NCBI GenBank assembly: GCA_900095095.1
Contig: FMBT01000344.1
Location: forward strand, 124,001 to 188,000
Source of the DNA: Fragilariopsis cylindrus CCMP1102
Lineage: Eukaryota > Bacillariophyta > Bacillariophyceae > Bacillariales > Bacillariaceae
DNA: 64,000 nt
Direction: 5' to 3'
Every line of letters begins with the position of its first letter. The stretch's first letter is position 1. Position numbers and translations under genes: made by a program. The notes beneath the pieces were generated by a model, which saw only the letters and a list, made by a program, of their open reading frames with translations, searched no databases and had not been told where the DNA came from. Below are positions 8,701 through 62,888 of this stretch, in pieces.

Positions 8701-9150
8701 GACTTTGATCAATGTCAAGATTGTGTACAGAATCCTAATACTCCTCGGCATCCTCATCAGTTGAAACCTATTGCAGTAGCAGGTCAACAAACTGAGTTGA
8801 CAGAAGCTCAACGCAAGGAACGCCAACGAAGTATACAGTTACATATGACTCTTTTGCAGCACGCCGCGACCTGTAACTCAACAAAGTGTCCATCCGCCAA
8901 TTGTACCAAAATGAAGGGCCTTTTGAAGCACGGTTCACAGTGTACTGTTAAGGCCACGGGTGGCTGTAATGTATGCAAAAGGATATGGGCTCTTCTCCAG
9001 ATCCACGCTCGTCAGTGTAAGGCACAGCAATGTCCTGTCCCTAATTGTATGGCGATCCGAGAACGGGTACGCCAGTTGAAGAAACAGCAACAGGCAATGG
9101 ACGACCGTCGTCGTCAAGAAATGAACAGAGTTTATAGAGGAGCGCGATAG
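2767..9150 (+). CDS. CBP/p300-type (KAT3) histone acetyltransferase
   Basis: Nuclear transcription coactivator that acetylates histones from acetyl-CoA. Exon 1 is 2767-3221. An intron (GTAAGT...TAG) runs 3222-3393, and coding resumes at 3394. Domains in order: Pro/Gln-rich N-terminus; a KIX domain split by the intron (about 3190-3580); long polyGln; TAZ1 zinc finger with its Cys/His triplets (about 4070-4345); bromodomain (about 5050-5370); Cys-rich PHD-type zinc region (about 5400-5775); KAT11 acetyltransferase (about 5800-6500); an acidic Lys/Glu/Asp repeat region (6950-8040); ZZ finger (about 8625-8770); TAZ2 (about 8800-9080). The catalytic HIWACPP tryptophan and the RLRQWY tyrosine match the key Trp and Tyr of p300. 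The whole protein is about 2060 residues, typical of plant and algal members. Near 4705-4731 the reading frame changes by one base, as if a base were lost, in Pro/Gln-rich sequence. No convincing intron explains it, so sequence error is likely. The family call is very secure. Confidence 0.93.
7627..7761 (+). repeat. Coding minisatellite, 27 bp x 5
   Basis: Five tandem 27-bp units encode a nine-residue unit of the form xKSEKKTxD inside the acidic linker of the acetyltransferase, between its catalytic domain and ZZ finger. The frame is kept because the unit length is a multiple of three. Confidence 0.85.
7762..8037 (+). repeat. Coding minisatellite, 54-60 bp x 5
   Basis: Directly follows the 27-bp array. 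Units of 54, 54, 60, 54 and 54 bp encode [22 protein letters not shown] blocks. The third unit has two extra Ala codons. The copies are almost identical at the DNA level, so copy number has probably changed recently by slippage or unequal exchange. The antisense open frame here is only a shadow of the repeat. Confidence 0.85.
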
Positions 9151-20568: not shown

Positions 20569-21142
20569 ACTTCCAGTGACTAGATAGATCGTGACTTAGG
20601 ACCTAATTTACTTTTATGGGGGATGTATCTCTTATAGGGACTATCCTCTCTCTGCCCCCGAATATCGCACACGTGGGATGATGACGCACGCATCAATCCA
20701 AAGAATGAAATGATGACTCATCAATCCATTGTGGATGAAATTCTTCGTCCACAAACTTCTCATACGTTTTGAGAAAAGTCTGAAAAGTGAACAAAGGGTA
20801 AATTGCAATTCTTCAGGCTGTTCAGGTGTGATGATGGAGGCAATTTGGATCAGCACTTAACGTAACGCACGTAAAGAACGGAGTATTGTTTCGAATAGTT
20901 CGTATGTAATACTATTCGTACGTCTTTGGTACGATTCTGATTCAACACAATGCAGCTGGAATCTGAACAACGTCGGATGCAACACTTTCTTCCACACACG
21001 CATGGCCCTTGAATTCAGGACGTGGTCGCGGAATTTGAAAATGATATCTGAAATTGGTTTTTCTAATTTGCATGCAGATGCTCTCATAAAATCAAATTCT
21101 TTAAAACATTCAACTCGACAACGACAACAAAAATCATTCATC
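20569..21142. other. Divergent intergenic region
   Basis: About 570 bp between two divergent start codons. Weak open frames at 20641-20856 and 20857-21216 on the minus strand show no family features. It presumably contains both promoters. Confidence 0.5.
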
Positions 21143-21688
21143 ATGTTCGCTAAACTCGCACTCCTTTTCGTTGTCATCGTTGTTGTTTCTGTGCAAGGAT
21201 TCGCTCCACCTGCCATGCAGTCGCGTGTTGCTTATAATACCGAACTCAATGGCGCATTCGACTTCCTCACAAAAGAAAAGGCAGCGGTAGTAGAAGCACC
21301 TGTCAAAGCAGTTAAGAAGAATCCATTCGCAAAGAAAGTAAAGGAAGCAGCACCTGTCAAGAAAGAAGCCAAGAAGAATCCATTCGCAGCATTCGCCAAG
21401 AAGGAAGCACCTGCCAAGAAGGCCTCCCCAGTTAAGAAGGTTGTTGTTAAGAAGGTTGTCGCCAAGAAGGCCGCCCCAGTTAAGAAGGTTGTCGCCAAGA
21501 AGGCCGCCCCAGTGAAGAAGGTTGTTGCCAAGAAGGCCGCCCCAGTGAAGAAGGTTGTTGCCAAGAAAGCCGCGCCAGTTAAGAAGGTTGCTGCTAAGAA
21601 ACCTGTCTCAAAAAAGTTCACTAGTCTTAATAATGGATCGAAGAAAACCAAGCTCACTATCTACGAACGTACATGCCACATCAATTAA
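21143..21688 (+). CDS. Lys/Ala-rich, H1-like protein, probably plastid-targeted
   Basis: Encodes 181 residues from the ATG at 21143. The open frame extends 5', but this Met begins a clean signal peptide. The hydrophobic core ends SVQG-FAPP, with Phe at +1, the diatom signature for import through the complex plastid. The mature part is strongly basic. KKNPFAKK-like blocks occur three times and are followed by an 11-residue repeat of the type VVAKKAAPVKK, as in histone H1 tails and bacterial H1-like proteins. No globular domain is seen. A role in compacting plastid DNA is an inference from composition and targeting only. It could instead bind silica, RNA or polyanions. Confidence 0.7.
   Translation: MFAKLALLFVVIVVVSVQGFAPPAMQSRVAYNTELNGAFDFLTKEKAAVVEAPVKAVKKNPFAKKVKEAAPVKKEAKKNPFAAFAKKEAPAKKASPVKKVVVKKVVAKKAAPVKKVVAKKAAPVKKVVAKKAAPVKKVVAKKAAPVKKVAAKKPVSKKFTSLNNGSKKTKLTIYERTCHIN
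21455..21586 (+). repeat. Coding minisatellite, 33 bp x 4
   Basis: Four near-identical 33-bp units (21455, 21488, 21521, 21554) each encode VVAKKAAPVKK. A related partial unit precedes them and a diverged one follows. In-frame expansion keeps the basic tail intact. Confidence 0.88.
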
Positions 21689-22489: not shown

Positions 22490-25400
22490 TTACTCCTCCG
22501 GATAGAATGGTACAAATTCTCCGTTCTCAAGTTTTCTCATTTTACGTGGTGGCTTACTGCTTCTACCCTGCTGAGAAAGAGGTGTAGATGGAGGAGTATG
22601 AGGAACCATATCACTGGGGAAATTGATGACATGATTGATTCCCCTCGGTTGGTCATCACGTAGACCAACTTGCAATGTCTGTTCAGATTGGGTCAAAAAA
22701 GCACTGATGAACTTCTCAGGCGTGCCAACTTGTTCTTCTGTAGTGAAGAAGTTGACACTGATATGCTCACGTCCGTCCCACACTAGAATTGCGCTACCCA
22801 TCGGTGATAGAACCAAAATCATACCACCGTCACCGACATCAGTATATTGTCTAGTCAAGGTTGTTACCATGTCTACAGCCTTCAACGATTCGTCGAGGTA
22901 CTTCGAGATCTTCTCTATAGTCAAATCCAAGTCTCCCTCAACTGTTCCAGCCTTGACAAGCTGGTAGATATTCTGACGGCCAAATGCCTTTTGATTTTTA
23001 AACTGTTCTCTACCAGGTTCGCTGTCGTAGTCTTCGTGTTTGAATACAGTTGGATCCCATTTCGGGTTAAATCTGAACAACGCTCCGTGAATTTTCCTCA
23101 GTTCTATGTTCACATCAGCTGAATCCGATAGACGCTTCTTAATTCGACCTTCAAGCTCCTCTAAGTTGTAACTAACTCTCAAGTCGTTGGTACAGAGAAT
23201 ACCCATTTCATAGGTCTTGCCTCCTGCCTGGAAAACAATTTCGGCACGAGACGCAGGTTCGAAATGAACTTGCTTACGGTACCGATCAAGGAACTCTCTA
23301 CGGAAAGTTTCTTCGACATTATCATTCATCCAGGTAATGACAACATTATGTTCCTCGAATATTAACTGACGGGTTTCTCTGTCGCCCAAAACGCTATTCA
23401 TGATTTGGTGCATTCCAAAGGATGCCGAATTGTCCATGACAAGTAGATTCATTTTCCCACTCTTTCCAGCTCCCAAGGTTGACTTTGATAGAATCTCCAA
23501 AACGCTAGCTTCGCATTCGAAATCGTCGACTGCGGCGCATTCGTAAATAGGAATAAGCTCCTTGATACTATCATGCTCTTTCAAAACATTGTAGCCGACA
23601 CATTCGTCGCCTTCCTTTCCACAAACAACAACAGCCTTGACGCCCTTAGCCATATACAGCGTGAGTGGTACAGCTTCTTCAATTGAGACTGCACTGGCCG
23701 CCTTAGCATCTAGACTCCCCTCTTTCACAATATCCTCCTCGCAATTTCGTAGCTGCTTCATCTTAGGGCCCTGAATCTTTTGATCCTCCAACCAAGTACT
23801 AGAACCGTACATTCCACCAACAACAACCTTATAAGAAGACAAATCTGAGCTTCCGACCGCCTTTGCAAGAGCTTTGCGAAGAATTTGATCTTGGAGGAGC
23901 TGCCCCAAAGATTAATGTCAAAGGCGACGTACTTATCAGCTGGATAAATACGGGCGCTAATGAAACCTTCTTTCATGGCTACAACCCCAACGCCAACATT
24001 AACATCAAAAACAGGGTCTGCAATCAAAGTGAAACCCTCCTTTTCAGCAACGTCCTTCACGATAGTCGTAATACTTTCATCAAGGGCAATAGAAACACTT
24101 TCTGCATTCATAATTTCTACGATTCCAGCAGCTGTACCTTGTGTAGTCAACTTTTCAGGAGGGACGAAGTTGCATTTCTCTTCGGGAGCAATATTCTTGC
24201 GATATCCGTGTAGAAGATCATAACGAGTTTTAGGTGTGTACATATCTGCCATGAGAAGAGTTTCAACACCATGGTCATAAGTAGGACTTCGGAAAAAGTC
24301 AACGTTGTTACTACCGAATACCATGACTTGGTTGCAAATGACTGGGCTTTCGTAGTTTAATTCAGCGCTGTAGTCAAAGAGCGCACTGAACTTTTCATGA
24401 TAATGTTCATTCTTCACCATCACCCCGACCGGGTTAAGCAAAAGTGATAATGCATCAAAGACGTCAAGCTCCGCAGTGACAGAAAATGACATCACTGTCT
24501 CCGATAGATCAACCAGAACCAAGTCAAAAGAACCCCAATAGTCTTCTGGCAATAAGAGTAAACTCTTCGTAGCATCCCCAAACCACCACTCGACTCTTTC
24601 GTCTTCAAAGTGTGGGCTAGTCTGAAAGTGCTTGAACGACTTTCTTACAACAGATTGATCGATCTCAAGTCCTACCACTAACTCTAAGTCAGGGTATTTG
24701 AGAGCCTCGTGCAAAAGCATGGAATCTCCTCCACCGATAAAGATGATACGGCGAACATCCTTGACAAATCTACCCGCACCGTGCGCCGAGTACTCGTGGT
24801 ATTGAGGACGGTAGTTAGAACAAATCTGAACAATATTATCCAAATCCATGCACATATCATCCGTACTTTCTTTCTTCATGAAATTCAAGTCTTGGTAATG
24901 AGTTTTGAGAAATTCGATATCTTTAAAGTCGTTGAATTTCATAAGTGCTCTGTTATTACAGGTTGGAACTTGATAATCCAAGTCATCGAATTCCCATTCA
25001 AGCGTGTCATAATGGCTTGAATTTGCAATTAGTGGAGCAATATCGATTGGTTCCATACATCCACCGAAATCTTCATCCTTTTTACATGTGCCTTCGGTGT
25101 CCTCTTCCTCTTCTTTTTCTTCGTCGTCGTCGTCCTCCCCGTGAGAATCTGCTTTTGTGGTAAGGACTGTTCCTTGAAGTGGGGACGGTCCCAGACTCTC
25201 CAATGCTGCTGTCATGGCAACAATATTGGCATCAATGAACGAAAAAATTGCATCCAGCTCGGGTTGGGAAATTCCATGGTCTTTACCTTTATAACCAATA
25301 TTCCACTCAATATTTTTGATTCTTTTAAGTCTACGAATTTCCCAACGGAACCAAACTCGAGTTTGTTCCATAAGTTTTCCATCTCCCTTATCGGGACGAT

Positions 25401-26437
25401 CTTCTTCGTCCCAAGTAACGATTAACTTTCCATCTTCGATTTCGTCCAAGTCAAATTGAAAATCTTCCTCCATGTAATGCCATCTTTGTGGCATGTATTC
25501 GACAAAGCCGTAATCACGAAGAATTTCTTTTATTGGAGAGAAGGAGAAAAAGAGATTAATGACGCGACGGAAGAAACAACCAGTAATGTTAGACATAATC
25601 TTATCTTTGGGTTGCGTGTCACTGTACAGAAATCTTAAGAGTAATTATTGATTATTTTCTATTTATTTTCGCAAACTTAAACTTACCTGCAGTACCATAA
25701 CCGGATTGACGTCCTCCACATTCTTCGCACATATTATAGGAAATGTAAATTTGTTCTCCCGCTTCGATAGTCTTTGTGGCAGTCGTCGTATGATAATGAC
25801 CTGCATCAATTTCTGTATTCGTGTTAGTCCAGTTCCCGTTCCGATGATTTAAATTATCATACGCTGGAATCAAGATTGAGTCGTCGGAACGTTGGATGAC
25901 CATCAATGCCGCCTTGACACCAAATGCATCATTCGGATCTCCTTGACAACGACCGAACCAATCATCTTCAATCCAATCGGTTGGATCCTCGGGAGGAATT
26001 GATGCATTATCCAAAACTTCCATTAAGAAATCTTGAGCAGCCTTTGACCATGTCGATGGAATTTGAGCATCAGCTTCTGCATTAAGATATTCAACGTAGG
26101 GTGCATACTCTGATTCACTACCCAAACGCATTTCGTTCGCAAGACTACGAACCGTCCCACAAGACATCTGGGAGGATCGTTCATTAGGATCATCCGACTT
26201 GATGATCACACTCCAGGGTATACGAACAATCGGCTCGTCAACTTCTATGGCTTTTTTAGCATACACTCCCATGGGACTTTTCGGATCGTTCGGATTCTCA
26301 CGACGTAATTCAAGTTTGGGTGTTATGTATCCATCTTGTGCTTCAGAAACCCAATCGAAGATAGCTTGTGCCTCATTCAAATGTTGGTCAATAACATTTT
26401 TTTCTGCCGCTACAACTACCACCCGCCGCCACCACAA
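22490..26437 (-). CDS. SET / aminopropyltransferase / dead AdoMetDC fusion, copy A
   Basis: Multi-domain protein of about 1250 residues, probably acting on long-chain polyamines or polyamine-bearing proteins. Exon 1 runs from about 26437 to 25687. An intron (GTAAGT...AAG, 25686-25527) follows, and exon 2 starts at 25526. Domains: a RuBisCO-methyltransferase-like SET domain (GVYAKKAIEVDE, NLNHRNGNW, EQIYISYN; about 26330-25700); a spermidine-synthase-like fold (YHEYSAHG, IGGGDSMLLHE, GLEIDQSVV, GDATKSLLL, VDLSETV; about 24810-24270); an AdoMet-decarboxylase-like domain (about 24130-23900); and a C-terminal region of about 450 residues. The decarboxylase Ser, His and Cys are replaced (EGF, AR and LWG where ESH, THTW and TCG are expected). 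A one-base slip in the G4 run at 23903-23906 divides the gene into two frames. There is no in-frame ATG at the 5' end: the frame opens after a stop at 26465-26467. A short first exon with the signal peptide may lie upstream or be lost. Confidence 0.78.
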
Positions 26438-26711
26438 GGAACGATATGACCGATAACTTACACATCATCATTTTTGTGCCGTTGACTGTTGTTGTCGTCG
26501 TCGTCGTTGTCGTCGTTGTCAAGTTATTAAATTTACTTCTTGTTCGAACTTTTCAGTTTAATTACTTGACTGTGTACTGCTACGTTGGAACACTGCAAGT
26601 AACCCAATGCTTATTTATCAGATATGTTTACGTTTAGTTTTTCACTATCAAGTAATTATTTTATGATACAGCAGTTCTCGTCATTAAAACGAGCCGAAAT
26701 ATGATACCACT

Positions 26712-26843
26712 GGGAGGCGCACTGTGAAGACGAGTTTTTCGCCAAAAAAAAAAATCGCCACCCGCCAACTCTTTTTTGGAGGATGCGATGCAAGTGAAAA
26801 AAATGAATCACAAATAATTTTGAATCACAAATAATTTCGCGCA
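26712..26843 (+). repeat. Left terminal inverted repeat
   Basis: The first ~95 bases match the complement of 28068-28163 with few differences. A weaker match continues to a shared TTCGCGCA word near 26836-26843. An A-run of variable length separates the conserved blocks. Confidence 0.8.
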
Positions 26844-26870
26844 CAGAAACAAAATGCAAATATTTATTTT

Positions 26871-27310
26871 CGCTGTACACAATGAACTGAGATTAACACG
26901 AGCCCCTAAGTAAAAAAATCACTTAGGAAAATTCCGAAAAATAAATAAATTTTCGCTGTACACAATGAACTGAGATTAACAAGAGCCCCTAAGTAAAAAA
27001 AATCACTTTTGAAAAGTCCGAATTTTGGACCAAAAAAATAAATTTTTGCTGTACACAATGAACTGAGATTAACAGGAGCCCCTAAGTAAAAAAAAACAAT
27101 TAGGAAAATTCCGAAAAATAAATAAATTTTCGCTGTACACAATAGACTGAGATTAACACGAGCCCCTAAGTAAAAAAAAATCACTTTTGAAAAGTACGAA
27201 TTTTGGACCAAAATAATAAATTTTCGCTGTACACATTGAACTGAGATTAACACGAGCCCCTAAGTAAAAAAAATCACTTTTGCTAAGTAAAAAAAAATCG
27301 CTTTTGAAAA
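26871..27310 (+). repeat. Alternating 83/94-bp tandem repeat
   Basis: The word CGCTGTACACA recurs at 26871, 26954, 27047 (one change), 27131 and 27225, so unit lengths are 83, 93, 84 and 94. Odd units carry a CTTAGGAAAATTCCG block and even units CTTTTGAAAAGT with an extra TTTTGGACC, which makes an A-B-A-B higher-order repeat of about 177 bp. The last unit decays into short CTAAGTTAAA-like words to about 27415. All units contain GAGCCCCTAAGTAAAA. Confidence 0.85.
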
Positions 27311-27453
27311 GTGCTAAGTTGAAAGTGCTTTATTCGCTAAGTTAAAAAAATCACTTTTGAACTGCATTTTTCGCTAAGTTAAAATGTGTTTCATTAGCTA
27401 AGTTAAGTTAAAGTATAATAATAATAATTTAATCAATGTATTCATAATTTTCA

Positions 27454-27828
27454 TCATCTATTACTTGGTGAACCATATGGAGCTAGTCTTTTGTACTTTT
27501 TCTTCTTTTCAATTGCTGGTAGTGACACAAATTCATTGTGTTTTCTTTCTATTTTCTTAGTACTACTATTGTTGGTATATCTGTACAGTTCTTCTCTCAT
27601 AGCACTAAAATGTTGATTAGCAATTGCCAAACCACCTTGATTAGTGACCAATCTGGCACACTCTGAAAATACTGGTTGGATTGCTGTATATGCATTGGAA
27701 ACAGCTTCATTAGGATCAAATTCAAAACTTGCATCATCACCAGCATCATCATAACCACCATCATCATCCTCTTGAATTTTTGTTGTTGAAAAAAAATCCG
27801 ACTGTTGTGTTTGAGGTAAAATTGCGAC
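27454..27828 (-). other. Open coding-like stretch within the TIR element
   Basis: 125 codons without a stop, beginning just after a stop at 27829-27831. There is no Met before SAMREELYRY. The translation has an acidic stretch (QEDDDGGYDDAGDD), then a likely helical part, and ends with a basic KKKKYKRLAPYGSPSNR. This sort of basic tail occurs at the ends of transposases, so it may be the C-terminal end of a lost transposase. The family cannot be named. Confidence 0.35.
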
Positions 27829-28030
27829 CTAAATGGTAGCTCCTGCACCAAAACGGATGGAAGATTCAGATCAAGCGTTCAATTCTACTTTAGAACAGTG
27901 TTTCAGCTTTAGAATTATATCCTTGGTATTGAGTAACAGTATCAGCAAGTCAGGAGAAGAAGGTGTACAGTAGTACAGTTGTGATGTTAATGGGATTTTA
28001 GATTTTATGATGAGAGGAAAAAAGAAAAAT

Positions 28031-28163
28031 AATGCGCGAAGTCATTTTTTTTCACTTCCATCGCATCATCATTTTTTTCACTTGCATTGCATCCTCCAAA
28101 AAAGAGTTGGCGCGCGGCTACTTTCTTTTTTGGCGAAAAACTCGTCTTCACAGTGCGCCTCCC
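28031..28163 (-). repeat. Right terminal inverted repeat
   Basis: Complementary partner of 26712-26843. It includes the shared block that reads AAGAGTTGGCG on this side. A TTTTTTTCACTT word near its inner edge is repeated in direct orientation 32-40 bases further in (28046-28056). Confidence 0.8.
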
Positions 28164-28549
28164 GCAATAAAATCTCAACGGTAGGATTTATTGTTTTCAC
28201 GAACAGGAAAGATTTTTCTTGAGGCACGCTTTGGCATTGGCTCATGCGCGCACTGCTACTTCGAAAAACATTCAAAATCTTTGGGGGTGCAAACCAGGGG
28301 TAATAATTTATAACCCCTGCTGGTGCAAACAATATATTCTCATCGCTTCTGTTTAGAAATGAAAATGTTATGCTCTACATATATTACTTCTAAAATATTG
28401 TATTATTATTATTATTATTATTCTTGGATGGCTTTTTATGAATGATAGAGTAGTTATTGTATTGTCGCACAATAATGTTTTTTGTGCAAGTAAAAAAACC
28501 TTATAATTTCGTCACATAGATAAATAAATAAAGCAATTAGTTTTATTCT
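28164..28549. other. Spacer with ATT microsatellite and small hairpin
   Basis: Contains a short inverted repeat around CAGGGGT...AACCCCTG (about 28291-28318), flanked by two GGTGCAAAC words, and an (ATT)n run near 28399-28422. It ends at the stop of fusion copy B. No gene is seen. Confidence 0.5.
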
Positions 28550-31500
28550 TTATTCGTTATCCTCGTCGTCATCATCGTCATCTCCCTGGTCGACGTAAGG
28601 TTCAAGATCCCAGATCGATTCAAACCCCTTGTACGACATATCCTCTCGGAAGTTCATAACACGACCAATCCCACGTGGGAAATCATCACGAAGAGTCATC
28701 TTCAATTTCTTTCCAGCAAGTCTTGTAAATCCTGACATGAAATCTTTAGCATCATATTCGCTGTCGTCGTAAAGGAAAATATTAAGATCAACGTGTTCAC
28801 GACCATCCCATAATACTATGAGAGTACCCAGTTTGAAATCCGTTACGATTAAAACGCCATCACCGATATCGGTATAAACTTCGAATTCATAAAGTCCATA
28901 TCCCGTAACGGTCGAATCAATAAGACGAACAAGACCGACCAAGTCTGGCATACGATTGTGCCCCTTATCCTTGTTCAATTCATACTGGACGACGATTTTT
29001 CGGCCTAATGATTGCTGTTCGGACCATTGTTTATCACCAGGTGCGACGGGATAGTCACTCTGTACATATTCATGGGGATTATAATCATGCATGAATGGAA
29101 ACAAAGCACCGGTGATAGATATAACTTCAGCACTGGACGCTACACCCTTACGTGTTGGGAGACGTTCACTAAGTTTTTGTTCCAATTCTTTAAAGTTTGC
29201 GAAATCTGTGAAGTCGTTGTTAGATACAATACCAAGTTCCATTGCAGCTCCACCGACGTTGATGTTGATTTCAACTCTTTTAGCTGGATCCCAGTATAAC
29301 TCTTTGCGGTAACGTTCCAATAAATTCCTCTGCCACGTATCTGATAATGGTTTGTTCGATAATGCTAAGATAAAGTGACTCTCGCTACTGAATAACATTT
29401 CTCTGTACGAGATCACAGTCAAGATACTGTGGAAGATTTGTCCCATTATATTAGAAGTACTACCATCAATAACAACCATCCCAATACCACCATCACCAGT
29501 ACTGACAACTTCCATAAGGTCACTTAAAATTTTCTCTTCGCAATTATTCATTTTCATAAATTTATCAGGGTCGTCATCGTCCATTTTCGATAATTCAGGA
29601 CAGGTCCAAATGGGAATAACCTTGCTGATCGTTGCATGTTGCTCAAGTACATCTAGACTAGGGCACTTGTCTACATTTTCGACACCACAAATAACTGCGG
29701 CAATAGTTTCTCGACTTCCAACAAGGTTAATAGCTTCGTCCAAAACAACCTTCTTTGCCAACTTATCGGTAAACTCGACGTCCTTTACATTTGATTCTTC
29801 ACAATTGCGATTTTGAACAATTTGTGGTCCAATCAAATCCGTGTCTTCTTGCCAGGTCGATGATCCATACATACCACCAACGACGACCCGGAAATATGAC
29901 GCGGTCTTAGCCTTCAATTCTTCTCCAATACGTTTGCGGAGCTCGTCACCCTTTTGATATGAACCCCAAACTCCGACATCTACTGCGCAATACTTAGATT
30001 TTGGCCAATATCGAACAGAAACATAACCTTCTTTGAAGACGACAGTAAATAAACTGCTTTTAATGTCATCTGAACGATCTGCTATATACTGAACTGTGGC
30101 ATACTTCTTATCATCATCGGCAGAAATAGGTGTAAATCCTTCCTCTTTTGCTGCCGATAGAATAATTTTCTCGATAGACTCTTTGTCAAGCGTAATTGCC
30201 ACATCTTCAGCATCCAATATATGCAGTAAACCAGCACTCTTTGTCTGTGTGGTGTTGCCATCTTCCTTTTTCTCGGTATCTACATCACATTTACCTTGTT
30301 TCACGGCATCATTCTTCCTGAAGTCGTGAAAGTATTCATATCCAGTCTCTAAGGATTCCACGTTTGGCAACAAAAGGGTTTCGACGTTGTGATCGACTAA
30401 TGGTCGGCGGAAGAAATCAGCCTTGTTACTTCCAAAAATCATGCATTGGGAGCATATCTTTGGATTTTGATCGAGGTAAACTTGAAGAGTGTAATCAAAG
30501 GCTTCACTCATCGTCTCCATGTAATGTTCATTTTTGACCATTACACCGTCTTGGTTCAAAAGCAGGGCAAGAGCAGCGAAAACATCAAGTTTCTCCGTTA
30601 CTGAGAAGGCCATGACTGTTTCTGATAGATCAATAATCACTAGGTCGAAGGAGCCCCAGTAGTCTTCCGGTAGTAATAACAAACTCTTTGTGGCATCCCC
30701 AAACCACCATTCTACTCTATCATCGTCGAAATGCGCTTGAGTTCGAAAGTATTTGAATGACTTTCTGACAACAGTTTGATCTAATTCAAGTCCAATAACC
30801 TTTTCAAGGGATGGATACTTGAGAACTTCGTGCAACATCATTGAATCTCCACCACCAACAAATACCACGCGCTTAATATCATCAACAAACCGAGCTGCAA
30901 AGTGAGAAGAAAACTCATGATAATGTGGTCGGTACGAGGAACATATCTGCACGGTATCTTCGAGATCCATGCAAATATCTTCTGGAACATTTTCAGTACC
31001 TAAACGGAATGCAAAATTCAATTCTTGGTAGTGAGTCTTAAGACCCTCCAACATATGATAATCAGGAAATCGCATGATTTCTTTATTTTCGCAAGTTTGT
31101 TGGTTGTACTTCAACTCATCTTCTTCCCATTCTAATGTGTCAAAATAGTCAGCACCACAGAACGTAGAAGTACAAGTTTCGTCGTTACCAACAGGAACCT
31201 TTTGACTTTCGTCTTCAACGATATCATTATATGCGTAGGATAAGGCATTGATCAATGTCTGGTGATATTTCCATAGGTTGTTCCATTCGTTCTCTGGGAT
31301 GGAACTTTTGCCATCCTTCCAATCTGATTGCCAAAGCAAGTGTCGCATCTTCCTCAAACGCTTTAGTTCCTTGAGTATAAGACGTTTGGTACTTGATATA
31401 TCCTCTTCTTTTGTTGGTTTGTCTCTTTTTGCCCAAATTATTTCAATGGATCCGTCTTCCTCAGACTCAGACAGATCAAACATAAACTCAAATTCCTCAA

Positions 31501-32511
31501 AGTTCCATCGCTGTGGGAAATTTTCAACGAAGCCATAATCTCTAAATATTTCTGGTGTTCCATATCCGTCCTTCCTCCCGCCACAATTATCACACATATT
31601 GTAAGAGTTATAGATTTGTTCTCCTGGTTGAATGTCCTTCCTGGCAGTAACTTGATAGTTAACTTCACGATCGACCTTCATATGTGTGTTGTACCATTTA
31701 CCGTTTCTATGATTGTACATGTCATATACAGGAACCAACAAATCATCATCACCACGGGAGACAACCAGCATGGCTGCTTTGGCGGCAACCGCATCTTTAG
31801 TATCTCCACTACAATCCTCGTACCAGTCCTCTTCTAGCCACGTTGACGCATAGTTTGGAGGTACAGTTTGACGTTTCCCACCCAATACATCCTCTAGCAT
31901 AACTCTTCCTTTCGCGCTCCATTCGCTTGGAATTACACCGAGTGGTTGATTCATCAAGTATTGAATGTACGGTCCATACTTAGAAGCGGAATTAGGATCT
32001 TTGATGTATTTGCCCAAGGTTTGCACCTGTTTCATTTCTCTGGCAAGATTTCTCGCCGTACCGCATTTCAATACAGCTTCCTCAAAGTCATTTCGAGAAA
32101 GATTTTTATCGGTTTCTTCGTCTGTGATATATATTCCCACGGAATTTGACTTAGTAGATCACCTTTGGCAATAAATTCCTTTGCAAATATACCATGGAAT
32201 ACTCTTCCACCGTCGTCGCTGCTATCTCCGACGGCACGAATTTCTTGCTTGGGATTAAAAAATCCACCTTCGACATTAGCCAACCATTTAGTTAATTGGA
32301 CAGGGAATGAGCCCTTCTCCTCACTACCATCCGAAGAGTTATTATCATTCGTTTGTTGATGTTCACTGGTAAGATCAGCAGCATCATTATCAGCGACAAC
32401 CCGTTTCCGTTCGGGGTCATCTGCAACGGCAACCAAACTGCCACCGACGACGACGAATGCAGCAGCAACAACAAGACAGATAGGAATCTTTTTCCAGCCT
32501 GCAACAACCAT
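28550..32511 (-). CDS. SET / aminopropyltransferase / dead AdoMetDC fusion, copy B
   Basis: Close paralogue of copy A with the same domain order, about 1320 residues and no intron at the site used by copy A. The start at 32511 gives a clear signal peptide (MVVAGWKKIPICLVVAAAFV). The SET domain runs about 32240-31540 (GIFAKEFIAKGD, NHRNGKWYN, EQIYNSYNMC). The aminopropyltransferase-like domain is at about 30930-30400 (YHEFSSHF, VGGGDSMMLHE, GLELDQTVV, GDATKSLLL, IDLSETV). The AdoMetDC-like domain is at about 30230-29950, where EGYVSVRYWP and GVWG replace the catalytic Ser, His and Cys motifs. A C-terminal half (about 29890-28560) includes a second strand pattern WDGREHVDLNIF, possibly another decayed AdoMetDC-like unit, and an acidic tail. 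A one-base slip lies in the ATATAT run near 32127-32136. Secretory targeting plus SAM-linked domains suggests work on polyamines or polyamine-modified proteins in the silica-forming compartment. This role is inferred. Confidence 0.8.
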
Positions 32512-33886: not shown

Positions 33887-36490
33887 TTAATACATGCTCT
33901 CGTCGTTCAAACAATCCAAATAGTAACCATATCCACTATCACTATGCCAATCATCGGATGGTTCGATAGATGTACCCTGTGCAGCTTCGTTGAAACTAAC
34001 AATCATTTGCCATTGTTCATTACTATCAATCATACCTTGGACGTGTTCACACCATTCTCCTTGACTTAATCGTTCCAGGACTGGTTGTCGTCGTCCAGAT
34101 AGCCATTCACCTGGTGCAATATTATGATACAATCCTTCTTTGATATCAATCCCATCGTTACCATCATTTGCACTTTGATCATGCCAAGAGTCGGGTTGGT
34201 ATTCACAATCGTCGTACCCATCAAATATTCGAAGTACAACATACCAATCATTTGATGCATCATTCCACCGTTCAGTAACGTCACAACCATCATCGTTGTT
34301 GACAAATATAACAGGTTTACCATCAATATGTGCCCAACTTTCTTTCCATGCAAACCACTTTTGTAAATATTCTAAATCAGTTCGAATTTCATCTGCATCC
34401 GGTCGACCCCTGCGTTCTGATTCATGACAGATAGACCATTTCAAATATTCAGTATTCTGTTCGGTCGTTTCATCTAATAGCATTGTCATTCGTGATCGAT
34501 CAAAATTCGTATCAGGTCCTTCCCATGAAGCAATCCCGAGATTGATTTTACCGTATTCCATTGCTTCGACGTGTGCCTTTGCGACCATCGGATCACTGGA
34601 TGAATACCATCCCAATGCTGGTTCATGCATAGGCAAACGACCATAAAGATTTTCCCATGATTCTGCCGTACTATCAAATGTTGGAAAATAAAATGTACCT
34701 CTCACGGGGAATTCCAAATTCTCGTTGTTATTATTGTTACTAGTATTGGGCGAACCATCCATCCAATAAGTAGACGGTGTTTTGCTTTTTTCGTTACCAC
34801 TTGTAGTAGCTGGTATTTGCTGAATTGCAATAATCCCTTCGTTGTTATTCCAAAATACTAATTGACGATCGAGATTGAAATTAAAAAATGCACTATCACC
34901 ATTGTTGTTGGTTGGGATTGATTCAGTTTTCCAAATAATAAGTCTATTATCATCTACTATGATAAGAGAACCATCTGCTCGCAGGATAGTTCGGATACCA
35001 TCTGCAACACCCGCAGACCAAACAGTTTCATTCGTGTTGACATTAATTATAGATAAATCACCATCTAACATACCAATCATATACATTTTAGATTGTGAAC
35101 AATAATATTCTCCAGATTCAATTGCCTGGTTGGTACTTAAGATAACACCATCATCATCTACCGTAACACCATCTTCATTACAGAGTAACAGCAATTCAGA
35201 GTCATTCTCGTTCTCTTTATTATCGTTGCTACCATTACTAGATGCTTCTTCGTCTCCGTTATTATTATCGATCGTGGTGGTTGCTGTTGTGGTATTATCG
35301 ATGGTGTCAAAAATACCGTTATTATTGATATTACCGTCGCTTACTAATTCTGCTGCTGCACCATCGACGCCGGTATTAGCAACATTGCTGTTTTTATTAA
35401 TTCCTTTGAATCGTGCAGCAAGACAGATTACAACAATTAATGCAATCAAGTTAATACAGATTAATAAGATCAATCGATAAGAAATACCAAATAATTTCTT
35501 TTCACTCATAGTTTTCCACCATAGAGACGATATCGATTGTTGTTTTTTATCGTCACCGCCCTTCTTATTAAGTTTAACACCATTCTTTTCTACATCATGA
35601 TCACGATTAAGAACATGATCCCCATCCTCGTCAATCATCATAGAATGTTGAATAACAGTATCACGAGAACGAGCAGCACAACTAATAGTATCCTTATCCT
35701 TATCGTAAGCGGTTGATGCAACTGCAACAATATTGAAAGCGTCGTCACCTTTCACTTCATTTTGGCTCTTCATCACCTCCAAGTTATCGTTACCAATGTT
35801 ATTGTTGATTTTACGGTTGGCTTTGTCTTTGTCTTTGCCGTTCGAGTAGTCATAGACGTTAGCAATATTTGCTGTGACTGTGATATTTGGCTGTGTCTTT
35901 CGTGGTGCTTGTGCTTGGTCTGGTTCCTTGTCTTGTAAGCACAACTCATCCTGAAGTTCTTCGTATTGTTTGATCTTCATCATACTTCCCAATCGATTCC
36001 ACCATTTTTTCGTAGTAGTAGTTGTGGTAGAATAATCTCCAATACCAATACCAATACCACTACTAGGACTACTACCACTACCAACTCCACAGAAAAAGGA
36101 CGATATCACACGTTCCAATTCAATTTCTTCACCATCTGTTACGGTCGTTGTATCATTTCCGGTCAAATTACTATTTAAAGTATCATTATAACTACTAGAA
36201 TCGTGCTGGTTGCGAGGTGCTCTTGACAATAATGCCGGGGGAAATGGTCGTGCCTCGAAATCTCCCGCAGAAGCACCGATAGTAGTAGTAGTAGTAGTAG
36301 TAGTAGGTGGTGGTGGTAGTGGTGGCGGAGGAGGAGGAGGAGGAATCTCAATTTCATCTTCTATATTATAATCGATAGCATCGATACCTGCATCGAGACC
36401 ATCAAATATATCGTAGTCGTCGTCAGCAGCAACAGTAGATGGAGTTGATGGTTCCTGATTAGTAGTGTATCTGTTTCGTCTCGTCATCAT
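33887..36490 (-). CDS. Type II membrane protein with lectin and GH99-like domains
   Basis: Single exon of 867 residues. A cytosolic N-terminal part of about 340 residues carries Pro and Thr runs. One transmembrane helix follows (LILLICINLIALIVVICLAA, about 35490-35420), then an Asn/Thr-rich lumenal stem. The lumenal part has a B-lectin-like beta repeat (CNEDGVTVDDDGVIL, RADGSLIIVDDNRLIIWKT, LDRQLVFWNNNEG; about 35190-34830). The C-terminal catalytic-like domain (about 34690-33890) contains GTFYFPTFDSTAESW, LGWYSSSDP, IASWEGPD, GKPVIFVNN and SFNEAAQG. It resembles the glycoside hydrolase 99 (endo-alpha-mannosidase) type barrel seen in many stramenopile proteins. A Golgi role in glycan trimming is plausible, but the substrate is not shown. 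The short trinucleotide-coded Pro/Thr runs near 36290-36350 are expanded. Confidence 0.72.
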   Translation of the reverse strand: MMTRRNRYTTNQEPSTPSTVAADDDYDIFDGLDAGIDAIDYNIEDEIEIPPPPPPPPLPPPPTTTTTTTTIGASAGDFEARPFPPALLSRAPRNQHDSSSYNDTLNSNLTGNDTTTVTDGEEIELERVISSFFCGVGSGSSPSSGIGIGIGDYSTTTTTTKKWWNRLGSMMKIKQYEELQDELCLQDKEPDQAQAPRKTQPNITVTANIANVYDYSNGKDKDKANRKINNNIGNDNLEVMKSQNEVKGDDAFNIVAVASTAYDKDKDTISCAARSRDTVIQHSMMIDEDGDHVLNRDHDVEKNGVKLNKKGGDDKKQQSISSLWWKTMSEKKLFGISYRLILLICINLIALIVVICLAARFKGINKNSNVANTGVDGAAAELVSDGNINNNGIFDTIDNTTTATTTIDNNNGDEEASSNGSNDNKENENDSELLLLCNEDGVTVDDDGVILSTNQAIESGEYYCSQSKMYMIGMLDGDLSIINVNTNETVWSAGVADGIRTILRADGSLIIVDDNRLIIWKTESIPTNNNGDSAFFNFNLDRQLVFWNNNEGIIAIQQIPATTSGNEKSKTPSTYWMDGSPNTSNNNNNENLEFPVRGTFYFPTFDSTAESWENLYGRLPMHEPALGWYSSSDPMVAKAHVEAMEYGKINLGIASWEGPDTNFDRSRMTMLLDETTEQNTEYLKWSICHESERRGRPDADEIRTDLEYLQKWFAWKESWAHIDGKPVIFVNNDDGCDVTERWNDASNDWYVVLRIFDGYDDCEYQPDSWHDQSANDGNDGIDIKEGLYHNIAPGEWLSGRRQPVLERLSQGEWCEHVQGMIDSNEQWQMIVSFNEAAQGTSIEPSDDWHSDSGYGYYLDCLNDESMY

Positions 36491-37276
36491 TGTTATATTT
36501 TGATTTTGGTTATACTTTGATATACTAAGTATGCTTTGTTTTGTGCTTTACTCGTCTCGTCTCTTTCGAAAAGCTTTTTGATTTTAAACTAAAAAACTTG
36601 TGACACGGAAATATCGATACTAGATGTTCTTCTTCGCTCTCAAAATTCAAAAATTATCTTTGTGTGTGAACGAACAAGCCTGCCGTATCGATCGACGTTA
36701 GTGTTGAGTCTTGACAAAATTCGCAGGGGAACCTATTTTTCGCGCGCCAAAATAATGTTAGTATTGTTAGTGTTTACGGCATTTTTCATTACTACTTCAA
36801 GTACTTGTACATGATGTCTTTGTTCTTCGTATTGGTTGATGATAAGTAAGTATTTGTCAACAGAAGGTGCTATATTCGAAGCAAATCTCATGAAATACGC
36901 AACAAATCGGTCACCTCAAGCAAATAATATTAAAACGCTGTTATTTGACGATGACAAAAGATCCGACAATAAAGAGTTAAGGAATGTAATCATGGGCCAC
37001 TACCGAGCTGATTACGAACACCCTGTGATGAATTTAAAAAAGCCTCAGTATGGGGGATGATATTTGAGATAGTTGTATCCTATACTTTTGCATCTAATTA
37101 TATACTTTATTGTATGTAGTAGAAAGCGACAACGAAATACGTCTTCACATTTCTTTTTTAATTTCGAAATTGAACCGACTCAGATCTCGATATTATTACA
37201 GAACTAAATAACAATTAGTCTTAGCAGATCTCTACTGATTCAATCTTCCTTCCTGCCCTTATCGCATTAAACGCAT
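36491..37276. other. Intergenic
   Basis: About 790 bp between the start of the GH99-like gene and the stop of the SPX-EXS gene. A 74-codon open frame on the plus strand (36836-37060) has no recognisable features. No RNA gene is seen. Confidence 0.5.
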
Positions 37277-40200
37277 TCATAAATCGCCAGCTAGAGCTGT
37301 AGATGCTCTAGTTGCACGTTGTGCGGCAATAACGCTGGCGATACAAAAGGTTGACACGACAAGCATCACCAACACAACCTCACTCAAAACAGAAGATCCT
37401 GATTTTTCCTTCTTATCTACATACTTATGCTTATGACCTGTATCAAAATGCAGAGGTACGAAGTCGACGCGACGGTAACCTGAGACGTTGCATCGGTGCT
37501 CGTTTTCAAGTCTGAAAAAACCCCACACTGTACGGCGAAAGAGCTCAAGTACAATTTGGAGTGCAGAGAGATATTGGGGAATTGCAAAGACGGCACCCAT
37601 AGAAGGTGGCACAAAGGACAACACCCACAAGGATCGTAAGACCAAATCCATGGCGATGACACAATAATAAAGAGACTTTTTTGGATACATTAAGCGTGGA
37701 CCCAAAAATCCATATTCTTTCCTTCCCAGCCCCCAGTCCTATTTTTCAAAGGTGTTATGACAAAATTTGGTGAGGTGAAAGAAGTATCCATGTCTTTAAG
37801 GTAGCTAAATATCATCATAGTAGATCAATATACGATATTGATGTCTATGGCAACGATTAAATAGAACAACAGTATACACCTCTTACCATGTAGACATCCC
37901 ACGAAAAAGAATAAAGTGCTGATACAACATAAAGAATTGTCCAGCAGACTTGATAGACTGGAATTCGATGATGCTTTCCTGCGTTTAATCCAAGATATAG
38001 AGGATGAAATGCTCCGGTAAGACTAACCATCTGACCTAGGGCGTACTTTCCAGCATTAGCCAAATGAGGGAGCCGATCTCCACTATCGGTGAATTTTCTT
38101 AAACATTGATTGAAGCGGATTACGAGAGGGAGCAAAGTAACAATTGGGATGAGGATATTTTTATACCAAAGCTGATTTGCCCAATCCCCCAAATGACCCG
38201 ATTTACCGCCCTCATTTACTATAAAGTCTCCAGAAAATATCCAAAAAAAACTACGGTACGACAATATGAGAAAAAGGCAATAATGAGGAGAAAGCCCATT
38301 GAAATAGTTTGATTTTGCAAAATAGAGGTAACATTTCCAAAAAACTTACGTCCATGCAAAATCTTGGAAGACTTTGACAAGACTTGTTAAGATATCACCA
38401 ACATAGGTTTCTGCATGTGTGTGTGTGTGTACGATTTGTATAAACAATAACCAACTAGGTGAGATAAATTCGATTCGAAGACATTGTTTAAGCAAGCAAC
38501 ATATATTACGGCTCATCACGACTACTTCATGTGTCTGATGCGTAATACAACAAAAATTTATTGAGAAAAGCCAAAACTCACCGAAAAATGTAGGTGAATG
38601 GCATGGCGCTGTTACAACTCTGAATATGCTAATCCACATTGGACGTCTCGTTTTCAAAGGAAAAATCAGTTTCAACGAGGTAGCAAAAACAAGAATCAAT
38701 GGGTAGCTTCCTGCGGGGATCCAAAGTGGTATATCATGTGTACCTGCCTGTTATGACAAAACCAAAAACACATGAGAGTAGAAAACCAAAGAATCGATTG
38801 TTTGGGGGTGGTATTAGTTACTTTAACAGCATAATATATTGCATTGACTTGGCTATATAAAAGTTGTATCAATCACAGGATTTACAACTAAGAATTTTGT
38901 CTCGATTACATACGTACCTTGTAATACAGTAACATCAGACTCATATATAGAAGAGTATTATCCACGGCATCCTTGACAATCCCTACCGGTGTGGAAACTA
39001 TTCGAGGATTAAAATCAAATAAGAAAATGTAATTGACTCGATATCTGTTCCACATAAAAACACTGAAACCCCAAAACCATTGGAGTAATAATAGACCACC
39101 GCACGCTCTAAACACTGCGAACGCTGGCCTCGACCCGATCGTGGATTTACCCTTTGCAATCAAACCCCAAATACAGTCCCAAGCGACCCAAAGCGCAAGG
39201 ATGGCACACATCCCCAACCGGTATCCAAGTTGAAGTTGACTCCAATCCATATCCAGCCCATCACCTCTTTTTGTTAGCATCTGTGCCTTAGCCTCGATCT
39301 TGTCACCATCACAAAACCAATTGGCGTAATATGTTTCATAGTTGCGACAAAGAATATCAACAGCCTTACCATCGTTTAACATGTTCCGTGTAATGAGCGC
39401 ATCCTTGAATCGTCCCTTCTCTGATGGGATCGTTTTGTCAAATTTCTTAATGATCTTAACAAAACCGGTTATATTCATCATAGCATAATTGTGCAAGAGT
39501 TTTGAAACACGATACTGATCAACTAACGACCGCTTAATCGATTCCGCCTCTGCAGTACGTTTTTTATCCCGTTCGGGATCATTTTCGTATTCTTCTTCAT
39601 CATCATCTTCCGAACATTGAAAACTCATTGTGCTGTTTTTGTTTTTGTTCTTATCGGTAGCGGAAATTTTTCCCATTCGCATATTACGAACACGACGTTT
39701 TGTTTTCATATTAATTTCTGTCTCGTTATTTTGATTTTGATTTTCATTGTTACTATCATTCGATCTGACACTATCAGTTAGATGAAGGATCAGCTCTTCA
39801 ACTTTCTGACCCATAGACGAAAGTTGTTTCCGATGTTTTGGAAACGGTGAAACGATCTTTCCGTTATTATTGTTGCTTGTATCGGTTCCACCACCACCAC
39901 CACCACCACCACCGAACTCTTCAGAAATAATACCATCGTCATAGTGATTTCCGCTACCTTGTGATCGAGCGACGGAACCAACCATAAATTCTAATCGACT
40001 TTGTAATTCTTGTAATTGTGAATAATAAAATGAAACAACCTTTTTCTGTTGCTTGTAAAACATTCTATCAAAGGACTTTGCTTGTTCATCTATATCAACA
40101 AGTGAATTTCTTATCTTTCGTTCAAGACTAATTTACTCTTTTCTTGTTGGATGTAGAAAATATATGATCCGATATAGTAGAAAGGGCTAGATAACTATTC

Positions 40201-44841: not shown

Positions 44842-45001
44842 AAATACACTCTAAATCCTCTGACAACCACTGATTTCAGACCTACACCTACACTCTTAGC
44901 GATATCATTCGCTCCAGCAAGCCATTAAGCGAACCTATAACGACCCGTGTCTCAATTTACTTAGGTCTCGTGTTTCAACTCACTTAAGTAAATCAGCGAG
45001 C

Positions 45002-46912
45002 ATGATGAACCAAACATACCGTTACCTCGCTCACTTTTTATTACTACTCATTTTAACAACCAAAGCAACCTCTTTCGTTACTACTACCTACAGCCTTCAG
45101 CCTTCTTACTCCATAACAGCCATATCGAACAAGCAAAAAGCCTACTTTAACCTCATGTCCGATACCTTAAGCCTCGATTCAAAACACTCGCCTATCGCCT
45201 CCTTATCTCAATCCACTCTATTATCACCAGCTTTCAACTTTCCGCTTCCTCCTAAACGAATATCTATTCCTAGTCCCATCAAATCACCCACCATGACAAC
45301 TACAAAGCAAATCACTGTCGGTGGAATCAAGATGAGTGTCGAAATCGGCACCGAACAAGCTCGCACTTCTTCGGGAGCCATTTACCTCAAAGCTGATAGA
45401 GCAAACTTAAGCGAGCGCGATAAGATTGATCTTCTCAAGCTTATCAGCTCCAAGCAACAGCAACTCTTTGCCAGTGTCACTATCTCTATCAACGACCCAC
45501 AGAAACTGGTCAACAACCATTCTACCTCCAAACTCCTTGAGGAATGTGACCGTAACCTTTCTAAGTTCGACCTACGTGGAGTCTTCACCATCGTCATGCC
45601 TACTCTTGAAGGCACTGATGCTGGAAACTTAAAAGAAGATGCCAAAGGAGCTGCAATCACCTTTGATCTCTTCACTGATCACCTCCGCTTAACCGCCCAG
45701 CAAGTTGCCGACTCCTCTCGATGGTACTCGGGTTTCCCACCTACTTCCTTGCGCCTACAGGAAGATCTAGAATGGTCACTCTCCTACTTTGAAAAGAACT
45801 GCGATCCTGCACTCTATTCTAGAGTTCATTCCAAGTTGATGAGCTATGATAAGCACAGCCAAGGAGGACCTCTCCTCCTGAAACTAATCCTTGACGAAAC
45901 TACAACCACTGCTGATTCGAACTTAAAAGCCCTTCTCACTATTGTCGAAACTTACAAGATCAAAACAAGCATTAAAGGCGAAAGAATCTCTGACGTAGTT
46001 GATCTTTTCCGATCAATCTCCTTGACCGTCTATGCCCTCAACAACGACAAGCTCCCTTCAGACTTTGTCAAGCACTACATTCACATCTTCACCTCCTCAA
46101 GTGTTACTATCTTTAACGACCTCTTTGAAGACCTCAAGAAGCAACTTATGGCATCTAGACTCCAAGCTTCAATTTCTAAGTTCAAACTCGCACCTGCTGG
46201 TTCAAACCTTCTCTCAAATGATATGAATACTGTCGAATTTGTCCTTGAATATGCAAACAGAGCCTATCTTGATCTCTTTCAAAGCGGTGAATGGGACGCT
46301 ATCATTAACGCCACTCCCGGTGCTTCATCTCATCATACTCCAGCCACTGGAGTACCTCCTCCTGCAACTACTCGACGCCCGTTAAAGTGCTTCAATTGTG
46401 ATGAGTTGGGTCATCATATCCGTGAATGTCCACTCCCTCGCAATGAAGCCAAGATCTCAGCAGCTCGAACAGCCCATCCTAACGGCAGCCGAGACAGACA
46501 ACCAACCTCATTTCAGCGCCCTGTCAACAGGAAATGGCGACCTCCTGAAGCCGGTGAAAACAACAAACGGATTATTGACAATCACCCTTATACCTACAAC
46601 CCAGCTACTCGTGGTTGGGATAAAGACAACACACCCCCAAGTGGAGTACCAACTGTCGCTCCACCAGTTCCACCAGTTCCTGCAACAAATTTGACGCCAT
46701 TAATCCTTCCACCAGCCTTCCCATCAACACCCACTCCTGCTACACCTACTCCAGATGATGCTGCAAAGGCCGGTTTCTTCGCTGGGCAAAACCCTTTCGG
46801 TCTATCTTATAGTGCGGCCGCTCAACCAGCAACTGACCCCCACCATCGTAAACTTCAACTTCAACAAGCCATGATCGCCCTCACCGCCGAGTGGAAGGCA
46901 CTACCACCCTGA
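45002..46912 (+). mobile_element. Ty1/copia gag region
   Basis: 636-codon gag part of the element. The body (about 45290-46300) is the copia-type gag polypeptide. A CCHC zinc knuckle (CFNCDELGHHIRECP) sits near 46390. A Pro-rich C-terminal tail follows. The first ~25 residues are strongly hydrophobic and look like a signal peptide or membrane anchor, unusual for a gag. Codon use and GC content are higher than in neighbouring host genes. Confidence 0.85.
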
Positions 46913-47279
46913 AATGTATGGTATAGTTTCCTGTGGAATGCTTGGGCCTCTATTTGGTCCACATTCTGCATTATCGATATGATTTTATTCACACTTTTTC
47001 AATATGCTATCTGTAAATGCTTCTCTTCTATTCGAAATTTCTTTTACAATTTTCTTTTCAATCCAATTGAGAAGCATCTTTCCGTCAACTTCTTCATTTA
47101 CAATATTTTTATGCCTATTGCTACCGTTCCTATCACCATCCTTAATGCTGGTTACTATACTTTGCCAAAACTATTCCGAACTCGTCGTAAACGACGTCGT
47201 TTCTCCACCAAATCCAACTCCAGACCTTCGATTGGCTGCAGTCAAGCACGCTATCAATCCTCTCTCCGTCGTTGACGAA

Positions 47280-62200: not shown

Positions 62201-62888
62201 CCCTTGGATAATAATCCACTTTTCTTATTCAATACTCTTTCGTCTTCTCTTCTTTTAGCTCGTTTTGATACGAGCATAGCGGCACATGCTGCATTTACCG
62301 ATTCAATTAGGGATCGTAATCGTATATAAGCTTCGGTAGGTGTTAAACATAGGTCCGTACATAGTCGATCCACTTTATTGATAATCAATATTGGGACGAG
62401 CTGATGAGAATGTGCCTCTCGAACTACTTGATGCGTCCGTGCACACATTCCCTCAACGGCATCAACTACAAGCAAACAACCATCACAACATTGTAATGAA
62501 CTACTAACTTCGGTTGAAAAGTCAGTGTGACCAGGAGAATCAAGTAGATGAACAATTATAGGAGACGACGACGACGACGACGACGATGACGATGACGACG
62601 AAGATCCTCCTTCTGTTGTTGTTGCTGCTGTTCCTGTTGCTTTTTCGCAGCACCCGCATTCGATGGTGTGTACCGATGTCGAAGACCAATCGCTGATGCT
62701 CTCATAGTTATTCCCCGTCGCTGCTCTTCCTCTGTCGAATCAAGATATCGAAGTGTTCCAGCATGGCGTTCTGAAATAATTCCATTCGATTCAATCAAAT
62801 TATCAGCCAGGGTTGTTTTTCCATGATCGACATGTGCACAAATTGTAACAAGCCGCGTCTTATCGGGAGGAAGAAATACTGATGACAT
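59267..62888 (-). CDS. EFL1-like GTPase, 60S ribosome maturation
   Basis: EF-2-related GTPase. In yeast and animals EFL1 works with SBDS to release eIF6 from pre-60S subunits. The start at 62888 gives [20 protein letters not shown] with the P-loop [10 protein letters not shown], the G2 threonine in [18 protein letters not shown] (near 62530) and NKVDRLC (near 62370). The EF-2-like domain II follows, then [12 protein letters not shown] (near 60820) and domains IV-V. A Gln/Ser-rich insertion lies in the G domain. Exon 1 is 62888-59868; an intron (GTGAGT...TAG, 59867-59730) precedes exon 2, 59729-59267. The order and the large insertions suit EFL1 better than EF-2, which lacks them. Two one-base slips are seen, near 62600 (start of the Ser run) and near 61435 (A5 run). 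Each acts like a lost base. Confidence 0.82.

Follow-up and report, generated by a model that had tools for sequence, protein, structure and literature searches.

A tandem pair of SET-aminopropyltransferase fusion genes in Fragilariopsis cylindrus with decarboxylase-like domains lacking decarboxylase residues

Diatom fusion enzymes and the Fragilariopsis pair

Diatom proteins that fuse S-adenosylmethionine decarboxylase (AdoMetDC) and aminopropyltransferase (APT) domains, some with an added histone methyltransferase domain, have been proposed to make and N-methylate long-chain polyamines (LCPA) (Michael 2011, FEBS Lett 585:2627, as summarized in passages of PMC3820600, PMC12029483, PMC6356823 and PMC12803844; passages of PMC4742977, PMC4483651 and PMC12533330 cite the same class). 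In Nitzschia inconspicua 32 fusion proteins include an APT domain, according to a passage of PMC12803844, so many copies per genome are ordinary. Diatom-specific SET methyltransferases have also been linked to silica wall formation and LCPA (Nemoto 2020, as described in parts of PMC11554505 and PMC11151724). Passages of two of these papers state that what the diatom fusions do biochemically has yet to be characterised (PMC6356823) and, in a 2025 treatment of eukaryotic APTs, that they need further study (PMC12803844). Here we describe two neighbouring paralogous genes of this kind, copy A and copy B, which occupy the minus strand of positions 22490-32511 in a 64,000-nucleotide stretch of Fragilariopsis cylindrus CCMP1102 (contig FMBT01000344.1, positions 124,001 to 188,000), hereafter the window. 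The abstract that founded the class is said to mention signal peptides and a subgroup with dead AdoMetDC.

On balance, we favour reading copies A and B as old tandem paralogues of the SET-APT-(dead AdoMetDC) class, each probably encoding a secreted transferase-methylase that uses decarboxylated AdoMet (dcAdoMet) made elsewhere. They share with the fusions of Michael 2011, as portions of the citing papers present them, the joining of AdoMetDC to APT, in some cases together with a methyltransferase domain, and the earlier note on this DNA, which filed the pair with those fusions, was right as far as these papers show. Set against the same secondhand descriptions rather than the 2011 text, the present locus differs in its tandem copies and their unlike intron content; it also adds an inactive AdoMetDC-like domain, probably the second in each protein, with an alpha/beta block separating it from the first. 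The SET proteins of Nemoto 2020, compared through parts of citing descriptions, offer a further likeness, a SET domain tied to silica walls and LCPA. Bacteria likewise place the two polyamine families in one chain: AdoMetDC and APT share a single open reading frame (ORF) in 13 of the best 80 of 561 bacterial loci (L020, L028, L034, L035, L043, L045, L046, L068, L070, L072, L075, L076 and L078), and many of the remaining loci among the 80 have an APT ORF nearby. The order differs, however, as bacterial fusions begin with AdoMetDC, whereas copies A and B have the APT domain ahead of a dead AdoMetDC-like domain. New here are the tandem pair itself, the residues that argue against decarboxylation of AdoMet by either copy, and a second AdoMetDC-like domain, held as probable; the tandem-module layout is possibly unreported.

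Copy B (28550-32511) runs from ATG 32511 to stop 28550 with one frame change near 32127 and needs no intron, while for copy A (22490-26471) the possible start is ATG 26471 and the stop 22490. These limits agree with the two adjacent, same-strand genes of the earlier note, and its spacing of 2 kb corresponds to a spacer of 2.08 kb (26472-28549). Translation gives 1320 residues for copy B, with the frame change bridged by X, and 1271 for copy A, bridged likewise and read from 26464, the opening of the SET frame. The two proteins align with 511 identities over 1194 columns (43%). The single intron assigned to copy A was also found as described: 160 nt at 25527-25686, of GT-AG type (GTAAG...AAAG), it interrupts copy A at GYGTA^EIL and is absent from copy B, where the same site reads GYGTPEIF, ungapped and uninterrupted. 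Whether copy A gained this intron or copy B lost it cannot be said without a third family member or an outgroup, and no third member of the class appeared in a scan of viral contigs with copy B (three pattern matches, no relatives) or in a scan of genome contigs with the APT alignment (41 pattern matches, no relatives). Because overall identity is 43% and synonymous sites have reached saturation in all but one of the seven rows computed, we take the tandem duplication to be old. Non-synonymous change is well under synonymous change in every block, non-synonymous divergence (dN) being 0.28 in the first APT block (APT1), 0.52 in SET and 0.64-0.71 elsewhere.

Domain content and the C-terminal third

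The first AdoMetDC-like domain lies at 29903-30244 in copy B and 23893-24123 in copy A. Comparison of its profile with 66 standalone bacterial AdoMetDCs (hhalign) scored 44.7 with a probability of 92.7%, against a best of 19.4 among 39 column shuffles. Pfam AdoMet_dc matches both copies at an E value of about 5e-4 (20.9 bits in A, 20.7 in B), below its cut-off of 25. The three-domain composition read by the earlier note is confirmed in each protein, and the profile searches it proposed lift Spermine_synth and SET above the Pfam cut-offs and leave AdoMet_dc under. NCBIfam returned the same APT and AdoMetDC families as Pfam, all below its own cut-offs.

According to a passage of PMC10407285, the pyruvoyl cofactor of T. 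maritima AdoMetDC arises from S63, and the enzyme equally requires H68 and C83, which take part in catalysis. All three residues are present in every one of the 66 standalone bacterial sequences, a near-invariance that is partly a matter of selection, as the set was drawn from the 80 loci most like the query among 561 and H68 formed part of the scan pattern. In both Fragilariopsis copies the alignment is ungapped at these positions and carries G, R and W in their place. With S63, H68 and C83 all replaced in copies A and B alike, the first AdoMetDC-like domain should not make dcAdoMet and is predicted to be inactive, and the likely role of the fusion is aminopropyl transfer rather than dcAdoMet supply.

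APT1 occupies 30308-31030 in copy B (Pfam Spermine_synth E value 5.2e-20; spermidine synthases in PDB, 1.3e-12) and 24190-24897 in copy A (Spermine_synth, 1.2e-14). At 64% identity over the block and with the lowest dN, it is the best conserved and most constrained part of the two proteins. In a set of 56 bacterial APTs, 35 columns are conserved at a level of 93% or more, and both copies keep the same residue at 17 of these, including Q41, Y71, H72, G93, G95, D96, E116, D118 and D165. Several of the kept residues (Q41, Y71, the GxGD motif, E116, D118 and D165) we take to be dcAdoMet-binding.

The methyltransferase domain fused in this class is termed a histone methyltransferase in passages of papers citing Michael 2011. 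In copy B the SET domain lies at 31598-32193 and reaches 38.7 bits against Pfam SET when read across the frame change, the part in the main ORF alone scoring 21.8 (cut-off, 22.4); in copy A it lies at 25733-26272 and scores 34.0 bits. Both copies carry the motifs NHRNG and GEQIYxSYNMC without change. Among solved sequences the closest is that of SETD3, which methylates histidine in actin, and the match is weak (E value 0.02); the copy A domain searched alone against PDB gave no match up to an E value of 1. This points, without proof, to a SET domain of SETD3 type rather than a histone methyltransferase.

Beyond what the earlier note described, each protein ends in about 400 residues for which Pfam gives nothing below an E value of 0.1. 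Six pieces of this region gave a single Pfam match, T2SSF at 0.13. A C-terminal profile searched against PDB returned only prion chains (E values 0.21-0.45), and phmmer with copy A returned one match (0.59); we took both results as chance.

The final block, 28637-29137 in copy B and 22607-23110 in copy A by profile comparison, is a probable second AdoMetDC-like domain. Against the 66 standalone bacterial AdoMetDCs it scored 34.1 over 110 columns (probability 60.9%, E value 8e-5), compared with a best of 24.96 among 199 shuffles (39 plus 160) and 11.0 for the reversed profile; within that run one control shuffle made for a different pair, APT1 columns against APTs, reached 32.4, which makes the margin over general noise small. 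The match takes in the WDGREH strand pair and an N-terminal strand resembling LGRH (SLGRKIVVQ in B, AFGRQNIYQ in A). Decarboxylase residues appear lost here too, with V (B) or L (A) at the H68 position and Y or T at the C83 position, while the S63 position holds F in copy B and S in copy A in the gapped profile alignment and L and M when counted without gaps from the tryptophan. We call this domain only probable because comparison with the 13 bacterial AdoMetDC-APT fusions was not above noise (15.8), comparison with the first AdoMetDC-like domain of these two proteins gave 11.9 (shuffles up to 18.4), and the structural model of copy B, in which this block falls below 50 in predicted local distance difference (pLDDT), gives it no support.

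Between the two AdoMetDC-like domains lies a middle block, 29144-29893 in copy B and, by alignment of the copies, 23117-23833 in copy A. An AlphaFold model of the copy B C-terminal region, built from a three-row alignment, has a mean pLDDT of 48, with block means of 57-84 over residues 161-300, and shows the middle block as alpha/beta; a replicate fold from copy A has a mean of 32. Foldseek searches with the copy B model placed human spermine synthase (3c6k, 3c6m) in the top five positions (E values 1.3e-6 to 1.1e-5), and 11 of the 12 matches up to 0.001 were APTs, the other being METTL16. The root-mean-square deviations and TM-scores were poor, and the first AdoMetDC-like domain may contribute to the spermine synthase match. 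Human spermine synthase shares with our proteins an inactive AdoMetDC-like domain ahead of an APT fold, a similarity at the level of fold given TM-scores by target of 0.27-0.32 from a weak model; homology in sequence was negligible when an APT1-AdoMetDC profile was searched against PDB (E value 0.71). The human enzyme is not known to have a SET domain or more than one APT. Profile comparison of the middle block gave 17.4 against the 56 bacterial APTs, within its own controls (22.1), and 16.2 against APT1 of the same proteins (shuffles up to 20.8), and the first AdoMetDC-like domain plus middle block aligned to the 13 bacterial fusions over only 64 columns, all in the AdoMetDC part. The middle block is therefore described as a possible degenerate second APT, on the evidence of the weak model and Foldseek.

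If both assignments held, each protein might be a single-chain pseudo-dimer in the order SET, APT1 (active), AdoMetDC1 (dead), APT2 (dead) and AdoMetDC2 (dead). Paired dead AdoMetDCs would then hold both APTs as an internal dimer beside SET, and the secreted protein would aminopropylate and methylate one tethered acceptor in turn. The eukaryotic AdoMetDC, a single chain fusing two class 1b units according to part of PMC10407285, is the model for this arrangement. We regard it as tentative and rather unlikely, and the small noise margin of the second AdoMetDC match and the serine in copy A weaken it slightly further. No description of a second AdoMetDC-like domain in diatom fusions was found in the open literature searched, which is weak evidence of absence.

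Frame changes and competing readings

Copy B opens with a signal-peptide-like stretch of 30 residues (32422-32511) ending AVA|DD, its cleavage site placed by eye and its hydropathy peaking at 3.25. The clear signal peptide of the earlier note accordingly stands as a signal-like start graded by hydropathy. Copy A also has a signal-like start, MMMCKLSVISFLVVAA (26418-26471), which is out of frame with the SET reading and makes the 5' end of the gene tentative, in line with the earlier note. One spliced start, using GTAAGT near 26461, was considered by eye and set aside, one acceptor leading to a stop and the other giving a 46-nt intron without a signal peptide.

Both copies also contain frame changes that the earlier note had not mentioned. 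That of copy B lies near 32127 (32118-32130) in an (AT)n run and one in copy A near 23893 (23885-23897), and a second in copy A, near 26430, separates the SET frame from the signal-like reading that opens at ATG 26471. By eye, neither 32127 nor 23893 shows intron signals. Several observations count against the reading that we favour. With these frame changes, one or both copies may be broken. At the other 18 of the 35 conserved APT columns, one copy or both show a change or a gap in APT1, although 3 of these columns fall outside the aligned block in both; the changes include D168 to E, P169 to T and G97 to S, close to the nucleotide and catalytic loops. The YPSG stretch, which we take to be the acceptor-side motif of spermidine and spermine synthases, is unmatched in the aligned region of either copy. 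If these presumed roles hold, APT1 seems to retain donor binding but to be altered on the acceptor side, and its activity is not assured.

Were the frame changes real, one or both genes would be pseudogenes, the protein ending inside SET in copy B and just past the first AdoMetDC-like domain in copy A. Long intact frames elsewhere in the window (a HAD hydrolase of 385 residues and a GH99-like protein of 886) fit such decay, as they indicate that error is not everywhere, and so does the lack of visible intron signals. Neither the 1271- nor the 1320-residue reading has any further stop, however, copies A and B can be aligned on either side of the sites near 23893 and 32127, and non-synonymous change is well under synonymous change in all blocks. 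Similar frame changes occur in two other window genes that were inspected closely, a p300-like gene (near 4720) and a gene that we take to be EFL1-like (near 61440), again with no intron visible by eye; the latter has a further possible frame change near 62570, in a triplet repeat, which may be an intron. Simple repeats host three of the six sites (32127, 61440 and 62570), suggesting error in sequence or assembly. Because of the similar changes in those two genes, sequence or assembly error seems likelier than gene decay, and we consider pseudogenes unlikely. The altered APT1 residues and the unmatched YPSG stretch, together with the invariant SET motifs and the weak SETD3 alignment, would also suit a fusion that is chiefly a SET protein methyltransferase, in which APT1 and the AdoMetDC-like blocks bind a polyamine- or amine-bearing substrate without transfer chemistry. 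Yet APT1 is the most conserved block and keeps Q41, Y71, E116, D118 and D165, which would be unexpected for a mere binding module, and we judge this alternative improbable as well. Far less probable still is an LCPA synthase whose own AdoMetDC-like domain supplies dcAdoMet. Diatom fusions having both domains are believed, according to a passage of PMC6356823, to use AdoMet directly, and the serine of copy A at the S63 position of the second domain might be cited in its favour; the first domain of both copies nevertheless lacks all three decarboxylase residues, and the second lacks H68 and C83 in both and, in copy B, has F (L without gaps) for S63.

Surroundings and proposed role

Most of the spacer between copies A and B is taken up by an element of about 1.45 kb (26712-28163) with inverted ends of 95 nt (26712-26806 and 28069-28163, 94% identical). 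It holds a 93-nt tandem array and a 124-residue ORF without a Pfam match, and no target-site duplication was seen at it by eye. On the side of copy A, the plus strand at 20861-21688 encodes a lysine/alanine repeat protein with a weak, below-cut-off HC2 match (histone H1-like) and a hydrophobic leader ending GFAPP; leader and FAPP presumably follow the plastid-protein pattern of diatoms and other red-plastid algae, making this a possible plastid nucleoid protein. Upstream of copy B, the minus strand encodes a large protein at 33890-36547, in which a single hydrophobic stretch is visible by eye and GH99 scores 32.3 bits, just under the cut-off of 33, and at 38909-40132 a fragment of an SPX-EXS (XPR1-like) gene that continues in other frames or exons. 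Farther away are the CBP/p300-like acetyltransferase gene (3353-9147, plus strand; HAT, bromodomain, PHD, ZZ and two TAZ fingers), a Copia-type retroelement in several ORFs (44900-51880, plus strand; zinc knuckle, GAG-pre-integrase and RVT_2), and the EFL1-like gene (59867-63092, minus strand), an EF-G/EF-Tu-type GTPase gene spread over three ORFs, its frame change near 61440 lying in an A-rich run. Rfam and tRNA scans of the window gave no matches.

Under the favoured reading, a secreted transferase-methylase using dcAdoMet made elsewhere, the protein would enter the secretory pathway, as the signal-like start of copy B suggests; in copy A the start allows either case. Its APT domain would take an aminopropyl group from dcAdoMet supplied by another enzyme and pass it to an acceptor amine, for which lysine side chains or growing polyamines of proteins that form silica are candidates, and the SET domain would methylate the same or an adjacent amine. 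The AdoMetDC-like parts may have turned structural or regulatory, as in human spermine synthase, whose inactive AdoMetDC-derived domain is essential through dimer formation according to a passage of PMC12803844; in trypanosomes, a passage of PMC6221367 reports, a catalytically dead AdoMetDC paralogue is kept as partner of the active enzyme. The connection of copies A and B to silica is itself one that we infer. The earlier note cited the proposal that fusions of this kind make, methylate or transfer LCPA. The loss of S63, H68 and C83 from the first AdoMetDC-like domain weakens "make"; "methylate" and "transfer" may still hold, with SET motifs and the presumed donor residues of APT1 kept.

The pair bears on how diatoms build and attach methylated LCPA, their silica-precipitating amines. 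It suggests that annotation by Pfam alone misses about one-third of the protein in this class, and it defines exact blocks for expression and testing. It also narrows the role that such a fusion may play: the recognised AdoMetDC-like domain should provide no dcAdoMet, while the donor-side residues of APT1 and the SET domain are kept.

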